Source: Candidatus Abyssobacteria bacterium SURF_5
GTDB lineage: Bacteria; Abyssobacteria; SURF-5
Assembly: GCA_003598085.1 (NCBI GenBank)
Contig: QZKU01000106.1
Location: forward strand, 1 to 37,088
Direction of reading: 5' to 3'
DNA length: 37,088 nt
Shown here: positions 24,782 to 36,884 of the stretch, piece after piece
How positions within the stretch are numbered: the first letter of the stretch is position 1
How the letters are laid out: every line of letters begins with the position of its first letter
Position numbers and translations under genes: made by a program
The notes under the pieces: generated by a model
Databases searched by the model: none
What the model saw: only the letters and a program-made list of their open reading frames with translations
What the model was told of the DNA's origin: nothing

Positions 24782-26143
24782 TTAGCTGTACGCGTTCTTC
24801 GGCGTGTAATCGAGCGGAGCGCCCGGCGGAATGGGCGGCTCTTTCTGCACGCTCTCGTTGAACTGGATGAGCAGCAGCCCCATGTGGAAAGCCACCCACG
24901 AATGCAGGTGCGGATAGTTCAGCGGCTTGCGCTCCTTCGGGTCCACGATCAGATTCACCAGGTTCGGATTCGGTATCGGCATCGCCGGGTCGGTGTAGTA
25001 GCGCTGCTCCATCAATTTCACCTTGAAGTTCTGCCATTTCGCGCCGTACAGCGTGGGACCGTTCCAGAAGAGGAAGCCTTCGCGGTTCGAATTCTCCTGT
25101 TTGCCTTCGAAGAACGCGCGCTGGTCGATGCCGTCGATGATGCGGTCGGACGGTACCTGGCAGCCGGCCCAGTTGAGCAGCGTGGTGAACATATCGGTGA
25201 TGTGAACGATCTCGTTGCTCTGACCGCCCGCGGGCACCTTCCCCGGATATCGGATCAGGCACGGCGTCCGTAATGAGCCCTCCATGCCGGTGAAATACGA
25301 GCCGTCGAAAAAGCCCGCCGTGCCGCGCCAGGGCTCAAGCTCTTCGGGGCCGTTGTCGCCGGAGAATACGATTATGGTGTCATCGGTGATCCCGAGCGCA
25401 TCCAGGTAATCCAGCAGGTCGCCGAAATCGGAATCGAGTTCGAGCATCGAATCGGCATAATCGTCGTTGCCGGTCTTCCCCTCGAATTCACGCCGCGGGA
25501 CCGTCGGCAGATGCATCATCGAATGATTGAAATAGAGGAAGAACGGCTTTTGGGCTTCGACGCTCTGCCTCAGGAACGCCTTCGCGCGGCTCATGTATTC
25601 GAGGTCGATATCCCGGCGCGCCTCGAGCGTCAGTTGCCGGACCGCCTCGATATCGCCGCCTTTCTTGCCTTCGAGAATATACGACATGGGGTCGCGCCTC
25701 GGGTCGTACCACGGGTCGTCCGGCCACAGGCACTCGTCGTAACTGCGCGGAATGCCGTACCACTCGTCGAATCCGTGATCGATCGGCCAGCGCCCCTTTT
25801 CGGCGCCGATGTGCCATTTGCCGTAACATGCGGTCGCATAGCCGGCCTCCGAGAGAATATCGCCCATCGTGCGCTCCCAAGCGACTATGCCGGTTCCCGT
25901 TCCCGCCAGCGCGACGGTATGCGTGCCGGAGCGGATCGAGTAGCGGCCGGTCATCAGAGCCGAGCGGGTGGGCGTGCATTGGGCCTCGGGCGCAAAATTG
26001 AGCAGCTTCAGGCCTTCGGAAGCAAATCGGTCGAGTCGGCGGGTCTCGGCGCCGCGAAGTATGCCGCCGCCGTAGCATCCGAGCTCGCCGAAGCCCAAAT
26101 TATCACACAAGACGTAAACAATGTTGGGGCGCATTTGATCCAT
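24782..26143 (-). CDS. Cys-type arylsulfatase-family sulfatase
   Basis: A 453-residue sulfatase with the formylglycine site C-T-P-T-R at Cys56, in EAQCTPTRSALMTGRYSIRSG. In the Cys-type consensus this Cys must be oxidised to formylglycine, here by the upstream anSME. A second metal-site region is FSGDNGPEE. The first metal motif is CDNLGFGELG: the usual Asp-Asp is Asp14-Asn15, seen in one known sulfatase subgroup. There is no signal peptide, so hydrolysis of a sulfate ester would take place in the cytoplasm after uptake. The start follows a purine-rich site in the 15-nt gap after the maturase. The substrate is not predictable. Confidence 0.92.
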   Translation of the reverse strand: MDQMRPNIVYVLCDNLGFGELGCYGGGILRGAETRRLDRFASEGLKLLNFAPEAQCTPTRSALMTGRYSIRSGTHTVALAGTGTGIVAWERTMGDILSEAGYATACYGKWHIGAEKGRWPIDHGFDEWYGIPRSYDECLWPDDPWYDPRRDPMSYILEGKKGGDIEAVRQLTLEARRDIDLEYMSRAKAFLRQSVEAQKPFFLYFNHSMMHLPTVPRREFEGKTGNDDYADSMLELDSDFGDLLDYLDALGITDDTIIVFSGDNGPEELEPWRGTAGFFDGSYFTGMEGSLRTPCLIRYPGKVPAGGQSNEIVHITDMFTTLLNWAGCQVPSDRIIDGIDQRAFFEGKQENSNREGFLFWNGPTLYGAKWQNFKVKLMEQRYYTDPAMPIPNPNLVNLIVDPKERKPLNYPHLHSWVAFHMGLLLIQFNESVQKEPPIPPGAPLDYTPKNAYS

Positions 26144-26158
26144 TCTCTCTCCTCTCCT

Positions 26159-27508
26159 CTATTCTCTCCCGTGGCACCGCTTGAATTTGAGGCCGCTCCC
26201 GCACGGACAGGGGTCGTTTCTGCCGGGCGCCGCAACTTTGATGTTTGCGCCCCCCTTTTCATATTGCAGAAGCTGAACGATCTCCGACGCCGGCCGGCGC
26301 CGGCGCAGAAGTTCCGCCATGATCTGCATCGGGCGATCAACATGCGCGAAGAACGATTTCAGGCCGGAGCAAAGATAATTCAACCCCGGCTCTCCGTTTG
26401 CTGTTTCAGAAAACCTGTTCTTTGGACATTCGCCGTGGCAGGCGAACAAAACATCGCACTCGCGGCATTGCTTCGGGAGCTTATCACGCTTACTTCGTCC
26501 AAATTCCCTCTGCTTTTCACAAACGGCGAGTTCAATGAGAGGCGTCTCCATGATGTTGCCGAGGTAGGACGCAGGTTCGACAAAATGATCGCATGAGTAA
26601 AGGTCGCCGCCATGTTCGAGCGCCATCGCAAACCCGCACTCCGGCGCCGTCGTGCACATCGCCGGCGGTGCTCCGACCCACGACGCCAGGGCCGCATCGA
26701 AATGGTTCACGAAAATTCTGCCCACGTCGCGCCTGACCCATTCATCGAAAATGGAACTCAGAAACCGGCCATATTGCTGAGGTTTCACCGATTCGGCGGT
26801 CACCGAATTTCCCGTTACGGCCGCAGAAGATCGAGACGAGTCAAGGCAGCCTTGCCCAGGGATTGAGCCGCCGCGGCGCATTTCCTCGCGCCGGTCGCGC
26901 TCGACAATCGGGATAAACTGGATGAACTGAATCCCGGCATTATCCCTCAAGAAGCGGTACACCTCGAGCGGGTGGTCCGCGTTTGCCGCGTTGACCGTGG
27001 TCAGGACGTTAACATCAACCTGATGCTGCTTCAGCAGCCCGAGAGCGCGCATCACTTTCTCGAATACCGATCGGCCGGCCTTATCCCTTCGGTAAGCGTC
27101 ATGCATCTCCTTCGGACCGTCAAGGCTCAGGCCGACAAGAAACTTGTGCTCGCGCAGAAATTCACACCAGCGGTCGTCAAGCAAGATGCCGTTCGTCTGG
27201 ATAGTGTTCTGGACGAATTGGCCCGGCTTCAGATATTTCCGCTCATATTCAATGGACTTATGGAAGAAATCGAGCCCCATCAGCGTTGGCTCGCCGCCTT
27301 GCCAGGCAACTGTCACCTGCGGGCTCTGATGCGCCTCGAGAACCTGCCGGATATATGCCTCGAGAACGTCTTCCGGCATCCGAAAACTGCTGCCGGCATA
27401 CAAGTTCTGCTTCTGAAGATAAAAGCAGTAGGCGCATTGCAGATTACAGGCGGCGCCGCTTGGCTTCGCCATCACGTGAATGGCAGGAGGACGAGTCTGT
27501 GAGGTCAT
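26159..27508 (-). CDS. Anaerobic sulfatase-maturating enzyme (radical SAM/SPASM) with SEC-C tail
   Basis: A 449-residue radical SAM enzyme. CxxxCxxC is Cys21-Cys25-Cys28 (ACNLQCAYCFY), followed by AWQGGEPTLMG, which fits SAM binding. The SPASM region has Cys clusters for two auxiliary [4Fe-4S] clusters, including the CRECDVLFACHGECPKNRF segment. This family converts the target Cys or Ser of sulfatases to formylglycine without oxygen, and the 15-nt distance to a CTPTR sulfatase makes that role almost certain. The last 30 residues add a SEC-C zinc motif (NDPCPCGSGLKFKRCHG) that is not part of ordinary anSMEs. The ATG lies 182 nt from the divergent arsR start. Confidence 0.93.
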   Translation of the reverse strand: MTSQTRPPAIHVMAKPSGAACNLQCAYCFYLQKQNLYAGSSFRMPEDVLEAYIRQVLEAHQSPQVTVAWQGGEPTLMGLDFFHKSIEYERKYLKPGQFVQNTIQTNGILLDDRWCEFLREHKFLVGLSLDGPKEMHDAYRRDKAGRSVFEKVMRALGLLKQHQVDVNVLTTVNAANADHPLEVYRFLRDNAGIQFIQFIPIVERDRREEMRRGGSIPGQGCLDSSRSSAAVTGNSVTAESVKPQQYGRFLSSIFDEWVRRDVGRIFVNHFDAALASWVGAPPAMCTTAPECGFAMALEHGGDLYSCDHFVEPASYLGNIMETPLIELAVCEKQREFGRSKRDKLPKQCRECDVLFACHGECPKNRFSETANGEPGLNYLCSGLKSFFAHVDRPMQIMAELLRRRRPASEIVQLLQYEKGGANIKVAAPGRNDPCPCGSGLKFKRCHGRE

Positions 27509-29594: not shown

Positions 29595-30146
29595 ATGGAA
29601 GTAAACATCGGAGAACGTCTGAAGAAAGTGCGGCTTGAAAAGGGATACACCCTAAAAGATGTAGCCGCCAAGTCAGGGTACTCAAAGGCCCTTATTTCCC
29701 GCATCGAGAACGGGAACGTGTCACCATCAATCAATTCCCTCCTGAAGATCGCATCAGCGCTTGAAGTGAAACCTCATGACCTGTTCTTACCGGCAAAAGA
29801 TGCCGAGCCTACAGTGGTTCATAAGGCGGAACGCAAGAAAGTGAAGATGAATGGAGGAAAGGCGGAGGTCGAATTCCTGACGGTCCAGAGCGGCGACAAG
29901 AAAATTGAGCCGCTGCTGATCACAGTCGAGCGAGGCGCGTCCACCGGCGGCGAACTCGGCGGTCACAACGGCGAAATCTGGACGATGCAACTGAAGGGAC
30001 GGATGGAGCTTGTGCTTGGTGAGAAGAAGCACACGCTTGAAGAAGGCGACTGCGCTTACTTCAAGAGTTCGGTTCCGCACAGCTTCAAGAACGTCGGAAA
30101 GAGCAAGTCGGTGGCTTTCTGTGTTATCACCCCTCCGCGCAATTAG
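29595..30146 (+). CDS. XRE-cupin transcriptional regulator, copy 1 of 4
   Basis: A 183-residue regulator. The helix-turn-helix of the Cro/C1 type (about 5-60) has GYSKALISRIENGNVSPS as recognition helix and following loop. The C-terminal cupin-2 domain (about 105-178) keeps His and Glu in GGHNGEIW and a second His in SSVPHSF, so a metal ion could still bind. This family usually represses or activates catabolic, polyamine or sulfur genes in response to a small ligand. GGGAGAAGG precedes the ATG. It is the first of four tandem paralogues and follows the strong promoter at 29271. The target genes are unknown. Confidence 0.93.
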   Translation: MEVNIGERLKKVRLEKGYTLKDVAAKSGYSKALISRIENGNVSPSINSLLKIASALEVKPHDLFLPAKDAEPTVVHKAERKKVKMNGGKAEVEFLTVQSGDKKIEPLLITVERGASTGGELGGHNGEIWTMQLKGRMELVLGEKKHTLEEGDCAYFKSSVPHSFKNVGKSKSVAFCVITPPRN

Positions 30147-30265
30147 CTAAAATCAGGCGCGCGTGCAAGCATGAGCTGGAGCGGCGGCGTTTGGGGAGGA
30201 AACGCGGCATAGCGATGCGGATTCGAAAGCGTGCGACGCAGTTGAGATAACATGAGGAGGAGACC

Positions 30266-30808
30266 ATGACACTGGGCGAGAAGTTGAAGAAGCTGCGTCT
30301 CGAAAAGAAGATGACCCTTCAGGATGTGGCGGATCAGACCGGTTACTCGAAGGCCCTCATCTCGCGCATCGAAAACGATTCCGTTTCGCCGTCGGTCGGT
30401 TCGCTCATGAAGGTGTCGGCCGCTTTGCAGATCAAACTGCATGAGCTGTTCGCCTCGATCGAGGGCAGCAAGATCTCGGTCGTCAAGAAGGGAGGCCGCG
30501 AATCCTTCCTTACCCGTGACGGAATCAAAATCGAAAATCTCTGCTTCCTCTCGGGCGGGCGCAAGATGGACGCCGTGATCAAGACGTTCGATTCCGGCGC
30601 CGCAACGGAGCGTGTAGCTGAAGAAAAAGCAGCCGAGGAGTGGTGGTATGTGTTGAAGGGCAAATTGGCGGTTTCCTTCGACGAGCGAACGGCGCAATTG
30701 AACGAAGGAGACAGCTTGTACGTCGTTTCGGCAAACATACGCAAATGGCGCAATCCCGGAAAGGGAAAAACATCGGCTCTCGTGGTGACGACGCCGCCGC
30801 TGAGCTGA
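30266..30808 (+). CDS. XRE-cupin transcriptional regulator, copy 2 of 4
   Basis: A 180-residue paralogue of copy 1 with the same domains. The HTH core GYSKALISRIEN is identical and VSPSVGSL follows. The cupin domain (about 100-175) has lost every usual metal ligand: the first motif reads EEKAAEEWWYVLKGK and the second reads ANIRKWRN, with no His. It therefore probably binds an organic ligand, or none. GAGGAGGAG precedes the ATG. It lies 119 nt after copy 1 with no obvious promoter in the gap. Confidence 0.92.
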   Translation: MTLGEKLKKLRLEKKMTLQDVADQTGYSKALISRIENDSVSPSVGSLMKVSAALQIKLHELFASIEGSKISVVKKGGRESFLTRDGIKIENLCFLSGGRKMDAVIKTFDSGAATERVAEEKAAEEWWYVLKGKLAVSFDERTAQLNEGDSLYVVSANIRKWRNPGKGKTSALVVTTPPLS

Positions 30809-30933
30809 GTGGACACATGGAGGTGGTGAGACAGGCGCCGAAGCAACACCGACATTACGGGCGGCGATAGAGACAGTGGAAGCACGACCAGATCGCGGCA
30901 GTTCATGTTCGAGTCCAAGCGGAGAACGATCAG

Positions 30934-31479
30934 ATGCAGAAGCTGGGGGATTTCCTCAAGCAAGCCCGCCTCTCACGAGAAATGACTCTGGAGGAGTTAT
31001 CTGAAAAGTGCGGGTATTCAAAGGCCCTTATCTCGAGGGTTGAAAATAACAATGTTTCGCCTTCGATCACGTCGCTGGCGCAAATGGCGGCCGCCCTGGA
31101 GTTGAAGCTCTATGACGTATTCGCCTCATGCGATGGTGACGAGCCGGTTATTGTGAGGAAGGACGAACGGAGAAGGTTCTCGCAAATGGATGGCAGGCAG
31201 GATATAGAATTCCTTACGAATGGTGCATACGCGAAGAAGATGCAGCCTCTTTTGATCTCCTTGAACAACGGACTGAATGACAACACATGCACCGGACATA
31301 AGGGAGAAGAATTCCTTCACATCCTGCAGGGAAAGGCCGAGGTTGTCGTCAATGGCGCGCGCTTCATTCTCGGCGCTGGTGACAGCATCCATTTCAGGTC
31401 GTCGTCCCCTCATTGTTATAGGGGGATTGGAAAAGGTAAAACCATTTCGCTCAAGGTCGTCAGTCCCCCATTTTACTGA
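30934..31479 (+). CDS. XRE-cupin transcriptional regulator, copy 3 of 4
   Basis: A 181-residue paralogue. The HTH core CGYSKALISRVENNNVSPS matches the other copies, and its MTLEELSEKCGYSKAL stretch is closest to copy 4. The cupin keeps His and Glu in GHKGEEFLH and a His in SSPHCYRG, so like copy 1 it may bind metal. A Cys precedes the first motif (TCTGHKG). GCGGAGAA lies upstream of the ATG. The 125-nt gap from copy 2 holds no recognised feature. Confidence 0.92.
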   Translation: MQKLGDFLKQARLSREMTLEELSEKCGYSKALISRVENNNVSPSITSLAQMAAALELKLYDVFASCDGDEPVIVRKDERRRFSQMDGRQDIEFLTNGAYAKKMQPLLISLNNGLNDNTCTGHKGEEFLHILQGKAEVVVNGARFILGAGDSIHFRSSSPHCYRGIGKGKTISLKVVSPPFY

Positions 31480-31526
31480 CATGGTTTCTACATGGTTTCA
31501 GCATGCAAAAGGAGAAACAAGGTAAC

Positions 31527-32069
31527 ATGAACATTGGAAAAGAACTCAAACGCATCAGGGTTTCGCAGGGGATGACGCTTGAGGAACTGTCGAACAAGTG
31601 CGGTTACTCAAAAGCGCTGATCTCGCGCGTCGAAACCGGATCCGTATCGCCCTCTCTCACATCCCTGATGAAGATGGTAACCTCGCTGGGATTGCAGTTG
31701 CACGATCTGTTCACCTCAATCGAGCAAAGTCAGGCCTCGGTGGTTCGAAAGGGCGAAGGCCGGAAATTCTACACCGAAAGCGAGTCCGCCACCGAATATC
31801 TGGCTAACAACATCGCCAATAAAAAGATGGAGCCGCTGAAAATAACGGCGCCGTCCGACTATTCCTCCGGCGACGAGCCGATTTCGCACTACGGCGAACA
31901 GTTCCTGTTCGTGCTCGACGGGAAGATCGAGATTACGACCGGCGAACAAACGCACAAGCTGAGCGCGGGCGACAGCGTCTATCTCGCAGCGGGGACCCCG
32001 TATTCCTGGCGCAACAGCGGCAAGGAAACCGCGGAAGTTATCAGCGTTATCACGCCGCCGCAAATTTAG
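31527..32069 (+). CDS. XRE-cupin transcriptional regulator, copy 4 of 4
   Basis: From the ATG at 31527 the protein is 180 aa, matching its paralogues; an in-frame ATG at 31503 would add eight residues and lies upstream of the ribosome site (AGGAGA 31510-31515). The HTH core CGYSKALISRVETGSVSPS is conserved. The cupin has His and Glu in SHYGEQFLF, but the second-motif His is replaced by Tyr (GTPYSWRN), so metal binding is doubtful. It follows copy 3 by 47 nt and is the nearest regulator to the sulfur-transfer island, from which a bidirectional terminator separates it. Confidence 0.92.
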   Translation: MNIGKELKRIRVSQGMTLEELSNKCGYSKALISRVETGSVSPSLTSLMKMVTSLGLQLHDLFTSIEQSQASVVRKGEGRKFYTESESATEYLANNIANKKMEPLKITAPSDYSSGDEPISHYGEQFLFVLDGKIEITTGEQTHKLSAGDSVYLAAGTPYSWRNSGKETAEVISVITPPQI

Positions 32070-32125
32070 CGTCGAACTCGATCTGGAATTCAAGACCACA
32101 TCGAGCATTGGTTTGAAGAAAAAAA

Positions 32126-32174
32126 CCCGATCCGATATCCTGCGGGCGCGGGGATCGGATCGGGATTTTCTTTT
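32126..32174. terminator. Bidirectional intrinsic terminator
   Basis: Arms CCCGATCCGAT (32126-32136) and ATCGGATCGGG (32154-32164) form an 11-bp stem with a GC-rich loop, followed on the plus strand by ATTTTCTTTT. On the other strand an A-run before the left arm gives a T-run. It closes both the XRE-cupin array and the convergent sulfur operon. Confidence 0.85.
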
Positions 32175-32179
32175 CGCTT

Positions 32180-33205
32180 CTACTCAATCCGCCATGGCGA
32201 CAGCCGTTCGTCGCTGATCGGCTGCACCTCGAGCAGTTCTTCCTCCCCATTCATCCGGCTGCGGATTACGAGACTGGCTTCATTCCGTCCTTTGCTGTAA
32301 CGCGCTGTGATTGAGGCCGCCACCAGCTTGGATTCTCCCGATATGTCTGCGGGCGCCAGCGTCACCGGCCCCAGGCCGTCGACAACCTGCATCTGCAGGA
32401 GACGTTGTCCCAGGCGCTCGAGCTTTTCGTTTTCCTTTTCATCGCGGCCGACGATTATCTTTGAGCCATCCGCCAAACGGAAATGCCGGCCATACTTCAA
32501 AAGCCGCATGTCGGCGAACGTGGCATCAGGCTTGTGCTCCAGCAGCTCACGCAATTTCCGCCCGTATATCTTGTCCGCCAGAAGACAGCCGCCCGCAGGG
32601 CAGGCGTAGTCATGGATTCCCTTCTCCGCCGCCAGCCGAATCTGTGGTTTGCGGCTTCTGCCCCTGATAGAAAGCATCTTCTCGCGGTCGATAAGCCCTT
32701 CTTGCTCCGGCTTGCTTGGCGGCAACAGCTTCGCGCAGAGCGGGCGAACCACCAGCCCATCTAAACCGCTCTCGCGCTCGATCGTTCTGATGGCATGCAT
32801 ATGCTGCGACATCGGTCTCTGGCCGAGCACTTCGCCCGTCACAATGAAATCCGCGCCGGTTCTTTCCATGTATTCTTTTGCTTTGCGAAACATGAAAATA
32901 CGGCAATCGATGCAGGGATTCATGCTCGAGCCCCAGCCGTGCGGGGGATGCTTGATGATGTCCAGATAGTCGTCGGTCACGCTGAACACCGAGAGCTTCA
33001 GGCCGAGCGCCTCACTCATGCGGCGCGCCTCGCTGCCGCACCCTTCGCGCCTGCGCTCGCTCGTGCACTGGCAGAAAATCGTCTTGAAATTGACCGCCTC
33101 GACTTCGACCCCCATATCAAGGAGGATACTGACCGCCAAAGTGCTGTCCAGCCCCCCTGAAAGAAGGGCTATCGCTCTTGGTTTTCTCCTGGTTTCTTTT
33201 TCCAT
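32180..33205 (-). CDS. PP-loop tRNA-thiolase-like protein with NFACT-R-like tail
   Basis: A 341-residue protein. The ATP-pyrophosphatase PP-loop is SGGLDS at 16-21. Cys-rich motifs follow: CQC and GCG (Cys45, 47, 56), NPCIDC (Cys98 and 101) and ACPAGGC (Cys202 and 207). Residues about 225-265 resemble the NFACT-R RNA-binding domain (YGRHFRLADGSKIIVGRDEKENEKL). Known PP-loop enzymes of the MnmA/ThiI/TtuA group adenylate tRNA and insert sulfur from a persulfide or thiocarboxylate donor, so I infer an RNA thiolase. The NPCxxC pair may form a redox-active site or bind a cluster. It is the last gene of the TusA-MoeB unit, 44 nt after the second MoeB-like gene. Confidence 0.8.
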   Translation of the reverse strand: MEKETRRKPRAIALLSGGLDSTLAVSILLDMGVEVEAVNFKTIFCQCTSERRREGCGSEARRMSEALGLKLSVFSVTDDYLDIIKHPPHGWGSSMNPCIDCRIFMFRKAKEYMERTGADFIVTGEVLGQRPMSQHMHAIRTIERESGLDGLVVRPLCAKLLPPSKPEQEGLIDREKMLSIRGRSRKPQIRLAAEKGIHDYACPAGGCLLADKIYGRKLRELLEHKPDATFADMRLLKYGRHFRLADGSKIIVGRDEKENEKLERLGQRLLQMQVVDGLGPVTLAPADISGESKLVAASITARYSKGRNEASLVIRSRMNGEEELLEVQPISDERLSPWRIE

Positions 33206-33249
33206 GTCCTCTTATTCCGTTCCCTCCGGAGTATGCGGAGCCTGCGTGC

Positions 33250-34050
33250 TCAGGTTTCACATTCCAGCGGGTATTCAATCAGCTCTTTGATTGTGGGGCT
33301 ATCGCCGCACAGGGGGCATCTTGGATTGCGCCTGAAAGCAACTTCCCTGAACGTCCCCGACAGCGCTTCGTAAATGATCAGCCTTCCGTTCAACGGCTTT
33401 CCTATATTCAGAATCAGCTTGATCGCCTCGGTCGCCTGCAGAATGCCCAAGACCCCGGCGACCGCCCCCAGTATGCCGGCCTCCTGACAACTCGGAACCG
33501 CGCCGACGGGCGGCGGCTCGGGAAAAAGACAGCGGTAACACGGGCCTTTCGCCGGCAGGATTGTCATTACCTGCCCGAGAAACTGAAGCACCCCCGCCTC
33601 GACCAGCGGTTTTTCCCGGAGGTAACATGCGTCGTGGAGCAGATAGCGCGAAGCGAAATTATCGACACCGTCTACTATGACATCGTACGACTCGATCGTC
33701 TTTTCGACGTTCGATCTGGCGAGCCGCAGGGAGTGCCGCTCAACCTCGACACCCGGGTTCAGCGAGTAAAGCTTATCGGCCGCAGAATCAACCTTCGGCC
33801 TGCCGATATCGGACGTCCGATGCAGGATCTGGCGCTGCAAGTTGCTGATCTCGACCACGTCGCTGTCAACTATTCCCAGCACACCGACGCCTGCCGCCGC
33901 AAGATAATATGCGGCCGGCGAGCCTAGTCCGCCCGTTCCCACCAGAAGCACCCGCGCATTCCGAAGCTTCTTCTGGCCGACTCCCCCGATTTCCTTCAAA
34001 ACGATGTGGCGGCTGTAGCGTTTTATTTCCTGTTCGCTCAGTTCGCTCAT
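33250..34050 (-). CDS. MoeB/ThiF-family E1-like adenylyltransferase, second copy
   Basis: A 266-residue Rossmann-fold adenylyltransferase with the nucleotide motif GTGGLGSPAAYYLAAAG (about 37-53) and RHSLRLARSN-type region after it. Zn ligands are CYRC (in GPCYRCLFPEPPP) and CPLC near the C-terminus. Enzymes of this class activate the C-terminal Gly of a sulfur carrier (MoaD, ThiS) as an acyl-adenylate. It is similar in length and motifs to the other MoeB/ThiF in this island at 35779-36603, but their neighbours differ: this one lies between TusA and the PP-loop protein. It has no rhodanese domain, so sulfur must come from elsewhere. Confidence 0.92.
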   Translation of the reverse strand: MSELSEQEIKRYSRHIVLKEIGGVGQKKLRNARVLLVGTGGLGSPAAYYLAAAGVGVLGIVDSDVVEISNLQRQILHRTSDIGRPKVDSAADKLYSLNPGVEVERHSLRLARSNVEKTIESYDVIVDGVDNFASRYLLHDACYLREKPLVEAGVLQFLGQVMTILPAKGPCYRCLFPEPPPVGAVPSCQEAGILGAVAGVLGILQATEAIKLILNIGKPLNGRLIIYEALSGTFREVAFRRNPRCPLCGDSPTIKELIEYPLECET

Positions 34051-34062
34051 CTCTTCACGTAC

Positions 34063-34311
34063 CTATGCATTTGCTTTCAGAATCAGGATTTGCCAGTCGG
34101 AATCGTTCACCTTGCTGACGCCAAGAATTTCGTTGCCCTCGTTTTCCATGCTTCTCGGCACGTTCCTTGTCGCCGGTTCATAATCCACGATCACCCGCAG
34201 GATCTGGCCCGGTCTCATTTCCTCGATCGCCAGCTTCGACCTGACGAAAGTGTACGGGCATATCTCACCCTTCAGATTCAGTTCCTTATCCGGAGTATGC
34301 TCAGTGCCCAC
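34063..34311 (-). CDS. TusA/SirA-family sulfur carrier
   Basis: A small TusA-like protein (82 aa from the GTG at 34311) with the persulfide-carrying Cys18 in KGEICPYTFVRSKLAIEEM, the typical CPxP-like helix start of the family, although Pro after the second position is Tyr-Thr here. TusA accepts sulfane sulfur from a desulfurase and hands it to TusBCD or to other acceptors. GTG at 34311 is preferred because GGAGGA lies 8 nt upstream; a GTG at 34329 would include the ribosome site. It starts the second transcription unit of the island, 12 nt before the second MoeB. Confidence 0.88.
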   Translation of the reverse strand: MGTEHTPDKELNLKGEICPYTFVRSKLAIEEMRPGQILRVIVDYEPATRNVPRSMENEGNEILGVSKVNDSDWQILILKANA

Positions 34312-34337
34312 AACAATGATCCTCCACACCGTTTTTC

Positions 34338-34346
34338 ATTATAGCA
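34338..34346 (-). promoter_or_regulatory. Extended -10 promoter before tusA
   Basis: Minus-strand TGCTATAAT, a perfect extended -10, 26 nt upstream of the GTG start. There is no good -35, which an extended -10 does not need. Confidence 0.55.
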
Positions 34347-34434
34347 GAATTTTCGCCGGGTCATCCGGCTTTCAGAGACGCCCGAAAAGGATAATTGCCG
34401 GAATGAGGAATGCTCGAGACGGAACTGACGCGAA

Positions 34435-34692
34435 CTACCAGGTTATCACGCGGTCGTACTCGAAAATCATGTCGGCGATGCGGTCATAATCGACAAGCTC
34501 GTGATCGGTTTGCACGCCGCGCGCCTGCACGTCTTCAGAACAGGCGTAGGTCTTCAGGCCAAATGAATCGGCATACACGCCGTCCTGTATCATGAGAAGC
34601 GCCTGCTCGACTCCATCGAGCCGATTGATCGCCTCGACAAGCCGAAGCGCCAGCCCGTCATCGTGATTCCTGATTATGTGCAGCACTTTCAT
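34435..34692 (-). CDS. DsrH/TusB-family protein
   Basis: An 85-residue protein of the DsrE/F/H fold, with the short length and C-terminal YDRVITW of the TusB/DsrH group. It has a Cys51 in TYACSEDVQARG, where DsrE-like members have a sulfur-binding Cys. It follows the DsrF-like gene by 6 nt, and the order DsrE-DsrF-DsrH matches E. coli tusD-tusC-tusB. It is probably a subunit of a hetero-hexameric sulfur-relay complex. The symbol tusB is not assigned, because the partner TusE is absent here. Confidence 0.78.
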   Translation of the reverse strand: MKVLHIIRNHDDGLALRLVEAINRLDGVEQALLMIQDGVYADSFGLKTYACSEDVQARGVQTDHELVDYDRIADMIFEYDRVITW

Positions 34693-34698
34693 ATTTTC

Positions 34699-35043
34699 TC
34701 AGTACCGGATAACCGAATCGCTTTCGAGCAACATGCGGGCGGCATCATCCCGCGATATGAGCTCCACCGCAACGGAAACGTCTCCTCGATATCTCTCGGT
34801 AATTGATTCCCGCTCCGCAAAGAGCCGGTGGCCGAGCTGGCGCAGCGTCTCGATGTGGCGTATGTATTCCGCCATGCCCAATCTCCCGGGCTCGGTCTTG
34901 AGGAGCGAATAGACGCCGTCGCCGATAAAAAGAACCTGTACCGAGTCGCCGCACAGGGTCAAGCCCACCCCCATCCGGAGGGCTTCCGTCGCGCGCACGG
35001 TTTTCAGCGGTGATTGTGAAATGAGAATCGTGGTGGTCTTCAT
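34699..35043 (-). CDS. DsrF/TusC-family protein
   Basis: A 114-residue DsrE/F-like protein, with a first strand TTTILISQSPLKTVRATEALRMGVGL and a GDSVQVLFIGDGVYSLLK segment, the usual middle of TusC/DsrF. It lacks a clear catalytic Cys at the DsrE position; TusC subunits are typically structural. It sits 3 nt after the DsrE-like gene and 6 nt before the DsrH-like gene and ends in DSVIRY, as in other members. Confidence 0.8.
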   Translation of the reverse strand: MKTTTILISQSPLKTVRATEALRMGVGLTLCGDSVQVLFIGDGVYSLLKTEPGRLGMAEYIRHIETLRQLGHRLFAERESITERYRGDVSVAVELISRDDAARMLLESDSVIRY

Positions 35044-35046
35044 GGC

Positions 35047-35358
35047 TCAGCAGAAAGCGATTACTCTATCAGAATCGCGGATATTACATGCGAAATCGTA
35101 CTGGCTCCCCAGCATGACGCCGTTCGTTTCGTCCTGAAAGCGCTCGTTCAAGTTCTGCTGGCAAAGGCAGATGTTGGCGCCTTTGTCGAGCAGCGAAAGG
35201 AACGGGACGTGGTTGACGTTGAGGACGCCGTCGCACATCAGAAAAATGCGCACCTCGATCCCGCGTCGCAGAGCGGCTTCGGCGACCCTGATGACGCTAT
35301 GCGTATTGGCGTGCTCGGGACTCGTCGTCAAAAGGATTCCCAACCTCTTTGCGGTCAT
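35047..35358 (-). CDS. DsrE/TusD-family protein
   Basis: A 103-residue DsrE-like protein with an early GILLTTSPEHANTHSVIRVAEAA helix region, a CDGVLNVNH segment, and Cys64 and Cys66 in ICLCQQNLNERF; one of these occupies the catalytic Cys position of TusD/DsrE. The ATG overlaps the stop of the JAMM gene by four bases, and the longer open frame reaching 35490 is merely shadowing it. It would accept sulfur from TusA and pass it to a downstream acceptor. Confidence 0.85.
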   Translation of the reverse strand: MTAKRLGILLTTSPEHANTHSVIRVAEAALRRGIEVRIFLMCDGVLNVNHVPFLSLLDKGANICLCQQNLNERFQDETNGVMLGSQYDFACNIRDSDRVIAFC

Positions 35359-35801
35359 ACCGGCTGATCCTCCCTCAAGCTCAGCGCCTGCTCCAGAAAC
35401 GAACCGTTCTCCTGGGGCATGATCCACGACTGCGCCGAGACCGCCCGCGCCTTTTCGACCGATACGATCAGGTACGAATAGCCCGGCCATGCGGCATGCT
35501 CGGTATCATATTGAGATGGCGTGCTCGGATAGTCGGGATGAGAATGATAGAAACCAATCACATCTTCCGCTTTGCCGCGGGTGGATTTAATCACCTCGAT
35601 GAGTTTCCTCTCGTCCACCAGGTAGCGATCATGCCGCCGCTCGGTGCTTACGTTCTTTGCGCGATGAGCTTTAGTTACAATGCGCTCGTCGCCGTTGTCG
35701 AACCCGACAAGGATGCCGCAGCATTCGTCCGGATACTCATCGAGAGCATGCCGGTAAATGTCATCGAGGATTTTGCGCTCAATCATCAACATGATCGCCA
35801 T
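35355..35801 (-). CDS. JAMM/MPN+ metalloprotease
   Basis: A 148-residue MPN+ peptidase with all catalytic ligands: Glu26 in DECCGIL, His86 and His88 in HSHP, Ser96 and Asp99, exactly fitting E-Xn-H-X-H-X7-S-X2-D. Bacterial JAMM enzymes process ubiquitin-like sulfur carriers, either by removing C-terminal residues after Gly-Gly (as QbsD does on QbsE) or by releasing an amino acid (as Mec does on CysO). Here it lies between a MoeB/ThiF gene (23-nt overlap) and DsrE (4-nt overlap). The carrier upstream ends in Gly-Gly-Arg, so removal of Arg is its likely job. Confidence 0.92.
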   Translation of the reverse strand: MAIMLMIERKILDDIYRHALDEYPDECCGILVGFDNGDERIVTKAHRAKNVSTERRHDRYLVDERKLIEVIKSTRGKAEDVIGFYHSHPDYPSTPSQYDTEHAAWPGYSYLIVSVEKARAVSAQSWIMPQENGSFLEQALSLREDQPV

Positions 35802-36603
35802 TCCCGCTCAACCCGCAAAATTCGTCGTAGTCGATCAGTTCCTTGATCGTGGCGTTCTTCCCGCAAACCGGACACTGCGGGTCCTTGCGCAGCTTGAACT
35901 CGCGGAATTTCATGCCGAGCGCATCAAACTGCAGCAGTCGCCCCACCAGCGGTTTCCCGACCCCGAGAATAAGCTTTTGCGTCTCGACCGCCTGTAGAGT
36001 TCCGATGATGCCCGGCAGCACCCCCAATACACCCGCCTCCTGACAACTCGGAACCATGCCCGGAGGAGGCGGCTGCGGGTATTGACAGCGATAGCACGGC
36101 CCCTGGGCGGCATCGAAAACGGTGACATGCCCCTCAAATAACAGCACACTGCCGTGCACGTTCTTCTTCCCGAGGAGCACGCAGGCGTCGTTGATCAGAT
36201 AACGCGTCGCAAAGTTGTCGCAGCCGTCGATAATGATGTCGTACTCCCTGAACAGGTCCAAGGCGTTTTGTGAAGTCAGCCGCTCCTTGTAAGCCCTCAC
36301 GCGAACATCCGGATTCAGCGCCTCAATCGTCCTTCGAGCCGATTGCACTTTCGGCAGGTCCAAATCCTGCACCGTGTGCAGAATCTGCCTCTGAAGATTG
36401 CTCAGATCGACTGTATCGAAGTCAAGAACCCCGAGTTCGCCTACGCCCGCGGCGGCAAGATACAGCGCGCACGGCGATCCCAGCCCGCCGGCGCCGATGA
36501 TAAGCACTTTCGATTCGAGCAGTTTCTTCTGCCCTTTTCCGCCGACTTCCTTCAATATGATGTGGCGGCTATAGCGCTTGATCTGTTCGTCGGTTAGGTT
36601 CAT
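35779..36603 (-). CDS. MoeB/ThiF-family E1-like adenylyltransferase, first copy
   Basis: A 274-residue E1-like enzyme with RYSRHIILKEVGGKGQKKL at the N-terminus, GAGGLGSPCALYLAAAG nucleotide loop (about 37-53), and Zn ligands CYRC (in GPCYRCQYPQPPP) and CPVC near 250. It would adenylate the C-terminus of the MoaD/ThiS-like carrier encoded 8 nt upstream, preparing it for thiocarboxylation. The downstream JAMM gene overlaps it by 23 nt, so the three are translationally linked. It has no rhodanese domain, so sulfur should come from the Dsr/Tus proteins or a desulfurase elsewhere. Confidence 0.93.
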   Translation of the reverse strand: MNLTDEQIKRYSRHIILKEVGGKGQKKLLESKVLIIGAGGLGSPCALYLAAAGVGELGVLDFDTVDLSNLQRQILHTVQDLDLPKVQSARRTIEALNPDVRVRAYKERLTSQNALDLFREYDIIIDGCDNFATRYLINDACVLLGKKNVHGSVLLFEGHVTVFDAAQGPCYRCQYPQPPPPGMVPSCQEAGVLGVLPGIIGTLQAVETQKLILGVGKPLVGRLLQFDALGMKFREFKLRKDPQCPVCGKNATIKELIDYDEFCGLSGNGDHVDD

Positions 36604-36611
36604 CTTCCCCT

Positions 36612-36884
36612 CTACCGCCCTCCCGCAATGGCGGGAACTATCGAAAGCTCGTCCTCCTCATTCACCGGCGTATCAAGACTCTGTAGAAAGCGGATGTCCT
36701 CATCGTTTACATAAATATTGACGAACCGGCGAAGGCCCCCGTTCTCCAGCAGCCGGTGCTTCATCCCCGAATAGCTGCGGTCCAGGTCCTCGATAATCTC
36801 AGCCACCGTCGCGCCGGCGGCCGTCACTTCCTCCGCTCCGCCGCTGAACCTTCTCAAAGGTACTGGAATACGAACTACTGCCAT
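36612..36884 (-). CDS. MoaD/ThiS-like ubiquitin-fold sulfur carrier with C-terminal Gly-Gly-Arg
   Basis: A 90-residue beta-grasp sulfur carrier. It has the MoaD-type arrangement, with NGGLRRFVNIYVNDEDIRFL in the middle and the family end PAIAGG near the C-terminus. One residue, Arg, follows Gly-Gly, so the precursor cannot be adenylated until a protease trims it. The ATG at 36884 lies 6 nt after GGAGGAG, whereas TTG at 36890 is too close. It begins the island's first operon: carrier, E1, JAMM and DsrE/F/H. It probably becomes a thiocarboxylate donor for cysteine, methionine, cofactor or RNA thiolation; which one is unknown. Confidence 0.9.
   Translation of the reverse strand: MAVVRIPVPLRRFSGGAEEVTAAGATVAEIIEDLDRSYSGMKHRLLENGGLRRFVNIYVNDEDIRFLQSLDTPVNEEDELSIVPAIAGGR

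Follow-up and report, generated by a model that had tools for sequence, protein, structure and literature searches.

Which sulfur pathway is encoded by a nine-gene island that joins a ubiquitin-like carrier, its E1 and a JAMM protease to a Dsr/Tus persulfide relay, a second E1 and a PP-loop ATPase? The island lies on the minus strand of a 37,088-nucleotide (nt) stretch of DNA from Candidatus Abyssobacteria bacterium SURF_5 (contig QZKU01000106.1). This whole stretch, called here the window, is one contig (C106) of a 5.1 Mb genome that is 98% complete. A preliminary description proposed that persulfide is loaded on the E1-activated carrier and delivered to RNA by the PP-loop protein. The analysis favours another reading, to which a probability of roughly 0.6 is given: the island is a two-module sulfur hub, i.e., (i) thiocarboxylate-dependent cysteine synthesis via DsrEFH/TusA and (ii) a neighbouring PP-loop tRNA thiolase, most likely replacing ThiI. 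The island core is best read as a variant of a known operon type (types 4c/4e of Iyer et al. 2006, PMC1779556) and not as a tRNA route. The nine genes are:

36612..36884, minus strand: carrier, ThiS/MoaD/SAMP-like, C-terminus AIAGGR (Pfam ThiS 62 bits).
35779..36603, minus strand: E1a, MoeB/ThiF/UbaA-type adenylyltransferase without rhodanese domain (Pfam, NCBIfam, alignment, E1 tree).
35355..35801, minus strand: JAMM/JAB metalloprotease, desampylase/Mec+-like (Pfam Prok-JAB 78 bits; alignments).
35047..35358, minus strand: DsrE/TusD-like persulfide protein (Pfam DsrE; alignment of 13 cluster members).
34699..35043, minus strand: DsrF/TusC-like subunit (TIGR03010 40 bits).
34435..34692, minus strand: DsrH/TusB-like subunit (Pfam DsrH, TIGR03011).
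34063..34311, minus strand: TusA-like sulfur carrier, CPYT motif (Pfam TusA 72 bits).
33250..34050, minus strand: E1b, second MoeB/ThiF-type adenylyltransferase (Pfam, NCBIfam, alignment, tree).
32180..33205, minus strand: PP-loop ATPase, ThiI-like catalytic domain followed by a C-terminal NFACT-R RNA-binding domain (Pfam NFACT-R_2 and ThiI).

This order and these families, from 36884 to 32180, had been described beforehand and are borne out by the reading of the open reading frames (ORFs) and by Pfam. The Pfam matches, all above the curated cut-offs, are in island order ThiS, ThiF, Prok-JAB/JAB, DsrE, DsrE (F-type), DsrH, TusA, ThiF and NFACT-R_2 plus ThiI. The nearest NCBIfam names are SAMP1 (the carrier), MoeB/SAMP-E1, desampylase, TusD, TusC, TusB, YedF/TusA, and ThiI ahead of MnmA; except for the general MoeB subfamily model, matched by both E1s, these matches are below the curated cut-offs and the names are approximate.

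Conservation in relatives had been proposed as a check. The same nine genes are found in the same order in two other genera of the same family, with protein identities of 52-78%; the island is thus not a chance association. Among named genomes, the PP-loop protein is closest to that of Candidatus Abyssobacteria SURF_17 (74% identity), followed by that of a groundwater genome labelled Poribacteria (68%). Both relatives have two additional genes: (i) an Rrf2 regulator directly before the carrier, for which the best specific NCBIfam models are CymR and IscR, below cut-off; (ii) a CysM-like cysteine synthase (CysM 357-365 bits) between E1a and JAMM. In the window copy there is no cysteine synthase at that junction, where E1a and JAMM overlap by about 14-23 nt; misassembly was considered and rejected since this overlap is clean. 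The copy behind the preliminary description was therefore one that lacks the most telling gene. The Rrf2 gene is not present before the carrier in the window; the contig ends about 200 nt upstream, and an Rrf2 gene may lie beyond that point. Elsewhere in the genome, the best cysteine synthase shares no more than 45% identity with the enzyme of the SURF_17 cluster, and for the nearest Rrf2 gene the identity is 40%.

A DsrE profile search of 386 genomes gave matches in 35, and 20 neighbourhoods were fetched around such matches. E1 adjoins DsrE in 10 of these 20 (L119 to L127 and L131), all from other families. These ten clusters usually add carrier, DsrF, DsrH, TusA, cysteine synthase, JAMM or Rrf2, the cysteine synthase being present in most of them. 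A PP-loop gene or a second E1 adjoins none of the ten clusters. The PP-loop protein is encoded in six of these genomes, on another contig or at a distance from the cluster; two others (G033, G185) have ThiI instead. In the E1 tree, E1a falls inside a group that holds most E1s of the other-family clusters (support 98/94), and E1b falls outside it. The grouping of E1a and the recurrence of the core without the PP-loop gene indicate that the Dsr/Tus relay belongs to the carrier/cysteine module, while TusA-E1b-PP-loop is a family-specific neighbour. The earlier view that the carrier/E1/JAMM system and the DsrEFH/TusA relay belong together is thus upheld. RNA delivery as the purpose of the island is not, given the cysteine synthase in the operon of both relatives and the ten clusters that do without PP-loop gene and second E1.

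The features of the individual proteins are as follows. The C-terminal GG of the carrier is invariant in the relatives; the window carrier has one residue (Arg) past it, and that of SURF_17 (L032:3527-3868) has a tail past AIAGG ending again in AVAGG, while the L033 carrier ends in AIAGG. The extra Arg and the SURF_17 tail imply that a trimming protease is needed. JAMM keeps the HSHP...SxxD motif and scores 103 bits, below cut-off, with the desampylase model NF041370. Both E1s keep the ATP-site residues, CQEAG and the CxxC pairs; no rhodanese domain was found in either, and they plausibly take persulfide from TusA/DsrEFH. There are three adjacent DsrE-fold subunits, as in TusBCD and DsrEFH, with the DsrE/TusD cysteine retained: Cys66 is present in 13/13 aligned cluster DsrE sequences ('CLCQQN', 'LCAHN', 'VCEHN' ...). 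No cysteine of DsrF or DsrH is conserved across the aligned cluster members. In TusA, CPYT replaces the usual CPxP, and does so in 10 of the 11 aligned cluster sequences. Searches of PDB profiles with DsrE and DsrH gave marginal matches only.

Module 1 (carrier, E1a, JAMM, DsrE, DsrF and DsrH, with TusA) would then be a protein-thiocarboxylate system for cysteine synthesis. From family knowledge and the conserved cysteines, persulfide from a desulfurase, or sulfane sulfur, would pass to DsrE Cys66 and TusA. JAMM would trim the carrier tail (in the window, the Arg past GG) and/or free the product from the carrier, and E1a would adenylate the C-terminal Gly of the trimmed carrier. The persulfide of DsrE Cys66/TusA, whose genes are linked to those of the carrier system, may stand in for a rhodanese and yield the carrier thiocarboxylate (carrier-COSH). 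This would serve cysteine synthase, as suggested by the relatives, where the enzyme is encoded in the operon together with an Rrf2 regulator; the window lineage would need such a synthase from another locus. Both persulfide and sulfide sources exist in this genome, since NifS-type desulfurases as well as PAPS (phosphoadenosine phosphosulfate) reductase- and sulfite reductase-like genes (L082, read by eye) are present.

These properties can be compared with those of known systems. MoeZR, the E1 of the CysO pathway of Mycobacterium tuberculosis, bears its own rhodanese; in the island TusA/DsrEFH would do the work of that domain. The CysO/MoeZR/CysM/Mec+ pathway (PMC3227635; Burns et al. 2005 as cited in PMC6225789) is otherwise alike in its carrier thiocarboxylate, E1, CysM-type synthase and JAMM. 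The window has the corresponding small beta-grasp carrier with its GG (AIAGG-R), MoeB/MoeZ-type E1 with CQEAG and JAMM with HxHP...SxxD, but not the cysteine synthase in the operon. In 2006 Iyer et al. described clusters in which carrier, E1 and JAB are accompanied either by cysteine synthase or by SirA/TusA and genes of sulfur assimilation. The likeness to types 4c/4e extends to the carrier, the rhodanese-free E1 (4e), JAB, the TusA-like protein and, in the relatives, the cysteine synthase (4c). However, the island adds DsrE-F-H, a second E1 and PP-loop/NFACT-R; DsrE and PP-loop proteins are unmentioned in that paper. In the literature searched, whose coverage does not extend to the Burroughs/Aravind NFACT paper and He et al. 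2022 (TtuI), neither the addition of DsrE-F-H nor the attached E1/PP-loop was found. The relays of Escherichia coli (TusA-TusBCD-MnmA) and sulfur oxidisers (DsrEFH-TusA) share the conserved DsrE Cys, the three-subunit set and a TusA-like carrier, but the island differs by CPYT, by the lack of a conserved DsrH Cys and by its linkage to E1/carrier genes.

The PP-loop protein had been labelled MnmA-type, which is not the most fitting label: its catalytic domain is closest to ThiI (Pfam ThiI 62 bits), the nearest solved sequence being the ThiI 2c5s (E 2e-13), ahead of MnmA, and its phyletic pattern suggests a ThiI replacement (see below). MnmA was rejected as its identity because of low scores with the MnmA equivalog models (34-38 bits, cut-offs 237-284) and because of a separate MnmA-like ORF (G000:C63). 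It must be noticed that the ThiI equivalog model TIGR00342 gives 54 bits only (cut-off 264.5). Pfam gives no THUMP match. The protein thus resembles ThiI/TtuI by its catalytic domain but carries a C-terminal NFACT-R instead of THUMP. The predicted fold (pLDDT 87) matches MnmA, ThiI and LarE and, separately, NFACT-R proteins (FbpS C-terminus, RqcH). Low global TM-scores (0.27-0.41 on the query) are what one would see if the two parts have not been solved together in one protein. C98, C101 and C207 are invariant in 34/34 family sequences. This CxxC+C arrangement is that of the iron-sulfur (Fe-S) tRNA thiolases (PMC6225789, PMC8584467), including Fe-S type ThiI/TtuI. With TtuA/Ncs6-TtuB-TtuC the likeness lies in a PP-loop enzyme with three Fe-S type cysteines (cluster binding being predicted) and in the carrier and E1 nearby. 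The differences are that the family alignment contains no further conserved cysteine sets, i.e., no N- or C-terminal zinc fingers as in TtuA/Ncs6, and that members of this family usually have no adjoining carrier or E1.

PP-loop/NFACT-R is an independent, widespread family. Close relatives are present in 25 of the first 59 other genomes compared, from many families, and by name also in archaea and other bacterial phyla. In the neighbourhoods examined the gene is mostly far from any carrier gene. One row in an unrelated family (L035:9072-12420) contains the PP-loop gene, then a cysteine desulfurase, then an E1 ending in YLGG. Fusions of PP-loop and NFACT-R domains are reportedly discussed in the Burroughs/Aravind NFACT paper.

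The distribution of this family is complementary to that of ThiI, which was absent from the window genome in a genome search. Among the 59 genomes, 14 have ThiI and none has both (chance 1e-4). Among 386 genomes, the PP-loop protein is found in 163, i.e., about 42% (the count transcribed from the search table; the search tally is 164), ThiI in 70 and both in one, for an expected overlap of 29.6 (hypergeometric 6e-18). In that sole genome (G316) the ThiI match is below the family cut-off. With one genome per family (151), the numbers are 70, 26 and 0 for an expected overlap of 12 (1e-8); these hypergeometric values ignore ancestry. Two families switch internally, i.e., f29 (PP-loop in G030 and G312, ThiI in G177) and f7 (PP-loop in G156, ThiI in G008 and G295), which favours functional replacement. 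The ThiI genes of two small single-contig genomes have two in-frame TGA codons each (G244:C1:728268-729374 and G371:C1:723149-724255), where TGA is probably read as an amino acid.

There are about even odds that PP-loop/NFACT-R_2 is an unrecognised Fe-S dependent tRNA s4U8 (4-thiouridine 8) synthase without THUMP, replacing ThiI across many bacteria and some DPANN archaea. The choice of s4U8 over other thionucleosides is based on the phyletic pattern and the likeness to ThiI. In the study of the s4U desulfidase RudS, two bacterial groups with RudS lack ThiI, and a homologue of other architecture was proposed (PMC11417400); the PP-loop family is a good candidate to fill this gap.

The E1 content of the genome bears on module 2, i.e., TusA, E1b and the PP-loop protein. 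A ThiF-family search of the whole genome gave E1a, E1b and one partial match of 28 bits, for five or six ThiS/MoaD carriers. One of these sits with thiG/thiE/thiC; others adjoin aldehyde ferredoxin oxidoreductase (AOR)-like genes (read by eye), several MoaD-like genes being each beside such a gene (G000:C89, C92, C121 and C126). The island carrier was rejected as the ThiS or MoaD of the genome since dedicated ones are found beside thiG/thiC and the AOR-like genes. With two clear E1s for five or six carriers, at least one of E1a and E1b must also serve thiamine and molybdenum/tungsten cofactor. There is a precedent: mycobacterial MoeZR sulfurates CysO and MoaD, MoeBR serving MoaD only (PMC3227635). 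Module 2 is probably a supplier for other sulfur users. As the number of E1s suggests, the ThiS and MoaD carriers would be activated by E1b and/or E1a too, with E1b/TusA as a putative pair for MoaD/ThiS. For the PP-loop protein the role would be tRNA thiolation: its CxxC+C site probably binds an Fe-S cluster, its most likely product is 4-thiouridine, made in the place of ThiI, and its sulfur would come from sulfide or possibly from the carrier.

Such feeding by the carrier is the basis of a hybrid tRNA thiolation like that of TtuA/TtuB/TtuC, in which E1b would load the carrier with persulfide from DsrEFH/TusA and the thiocarboxylate would go to the PP-loop protein. TusA-E1b-PP-loop adjacency is kept in three genera, and together with the L035 row it makes a direct link from carrier to PP-loop protein possible. 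There are precedents as well, since TtuB-COSH gives its sulfur to TtuA at a [4Fe-4S] cluster (PMC6225789) and archaeal E1-like genes adjoin PP-loop genes of arCOG00037 (PMC2948915). However, carrier, E1, TusA and Dsr genes are missing from almost all other neighbourhoods of PP-loop genes in the set examined, ThiS/MoaD may require E1b, and the regional synteny extends to the downstream XRE-cupin genes, which makes adjacency alone a weak argument. The hybrid route is thus considered unlikely, and an additional wiring of the PP-loop family to the carrier thiocarboxylate in this bacterial family is equally doubtful. Lower still is the chance of homocysteine/methionine synthesis of the Wolinella succinogenes type. 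A carrier thiocarboxylate is used there too (Krishnamoorthy and Begley 2011 as cited in PMC6225789), and other families have, beside the carrier/DsrE cluster, threonine-synthase-like genes whose N-terminus has a zinc-finger-like CxxC stretch (L121, L122, L124, L125, L131) and NIL-like genes (read by eye) with a possible link to homocysteine synthesis. Yet the pyridoxal phosphate enzyme of the relatives is cysteine synthase-like, and no MetY-like O-acetylhomoserine sulfhydrylase gene was recognised in the cluster. SAMPylation-like conjugation and deconjugation of proteins, with JAMM as desampylase and sulfur transfer as a secondary role, appears the least probable. In its favour, the nearest NCBIfam models are SAMP1, SAMP-activating E1 and desampylase, all below cut-off; against it, DsrE, TusA, cysteine synthase and an Rrf2 regulator are consistently linked to these genes.

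Some points weigh against the two-module hub itself: (i) the window copy has neither cysteine synthase nor Rrf2 gene, and the cysteine role in this organism is assigned by homology; (ii) DsrE, DsrF and DsrH, although above the Pfam cut-offs, are all below those of the NCBIfam TusB/C/D equivalog models; (iii) both lineage effects and functional replacement can produce the complementary distribution of the PP-loop protein and ThiI.

The genes of the island are closely packed. The gap is 8 nt between carrier and E1a, JAMM and DsrE overlap by ATGA, and the next gaps are 3 nt (DsrE-DsrF) and 6 nt (DsrF-DsrH); those of TusA-E1b and E1b-PP-loop are 12 and 44 nt. The start of JAMM is probably 35792 and that of TusA most likely the GTG at 34311; the DsrE start was corrected to 35358, the longer listed ORF from 35490 overlapping JAMM. 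Two further features were noted:

34338..34346, minus strand: TGCTATAAT, a possible, weak extended -10 element before TusA (sequence).
32119..32164, minus strand: strong hairpin followed by seven T, 3' of the PP-loop gene (sequence and RNA fold), likely the island terminator.

The gap between DsrH and TusA, about 120 nt in the window and about 365-375 nt in the two relatives, suggests that TusA-E1b-PP-loop is a second transcription unit. The element TGCTATAAT was not flagged by the promoter consensus scan, and its conservation in the alignment of the relatives is not clear. A second promoter before TusA stays a suggestion, because the promoter/terminator consensus scan gave no more matches than in shuffles and the spacers of the relatives align poorly. 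Beyond the hairpin, four tandem XRE-cupin regulator genes (about 180 amino acids each; 29595-32069, plus strand) converge on the island; tandem relatives occupy the same place in both relatives (best pairs 53-79% identical). A sulfatase-like gene and, after it, a radical-SAM gene similar to anaerobic sulfatase maturases lie at 24782-27508 (minus strand; read by eye).

The island joins three sulfur systems that are usually kept apart, i.e., ubiquitin-like carriers, the Dsr/Tus persulfide relay and tRNA thiolation. Across bacterial families, carrier-dependent cysteine synthesis is repeatedly partnered by a DsrEFH/TusA relay. The broader lead, and that of higher interest, is the PP-loop family, which offers a specific candidate enzyme for s4U synthesis where ThiI is missing, as it is in many genomes.

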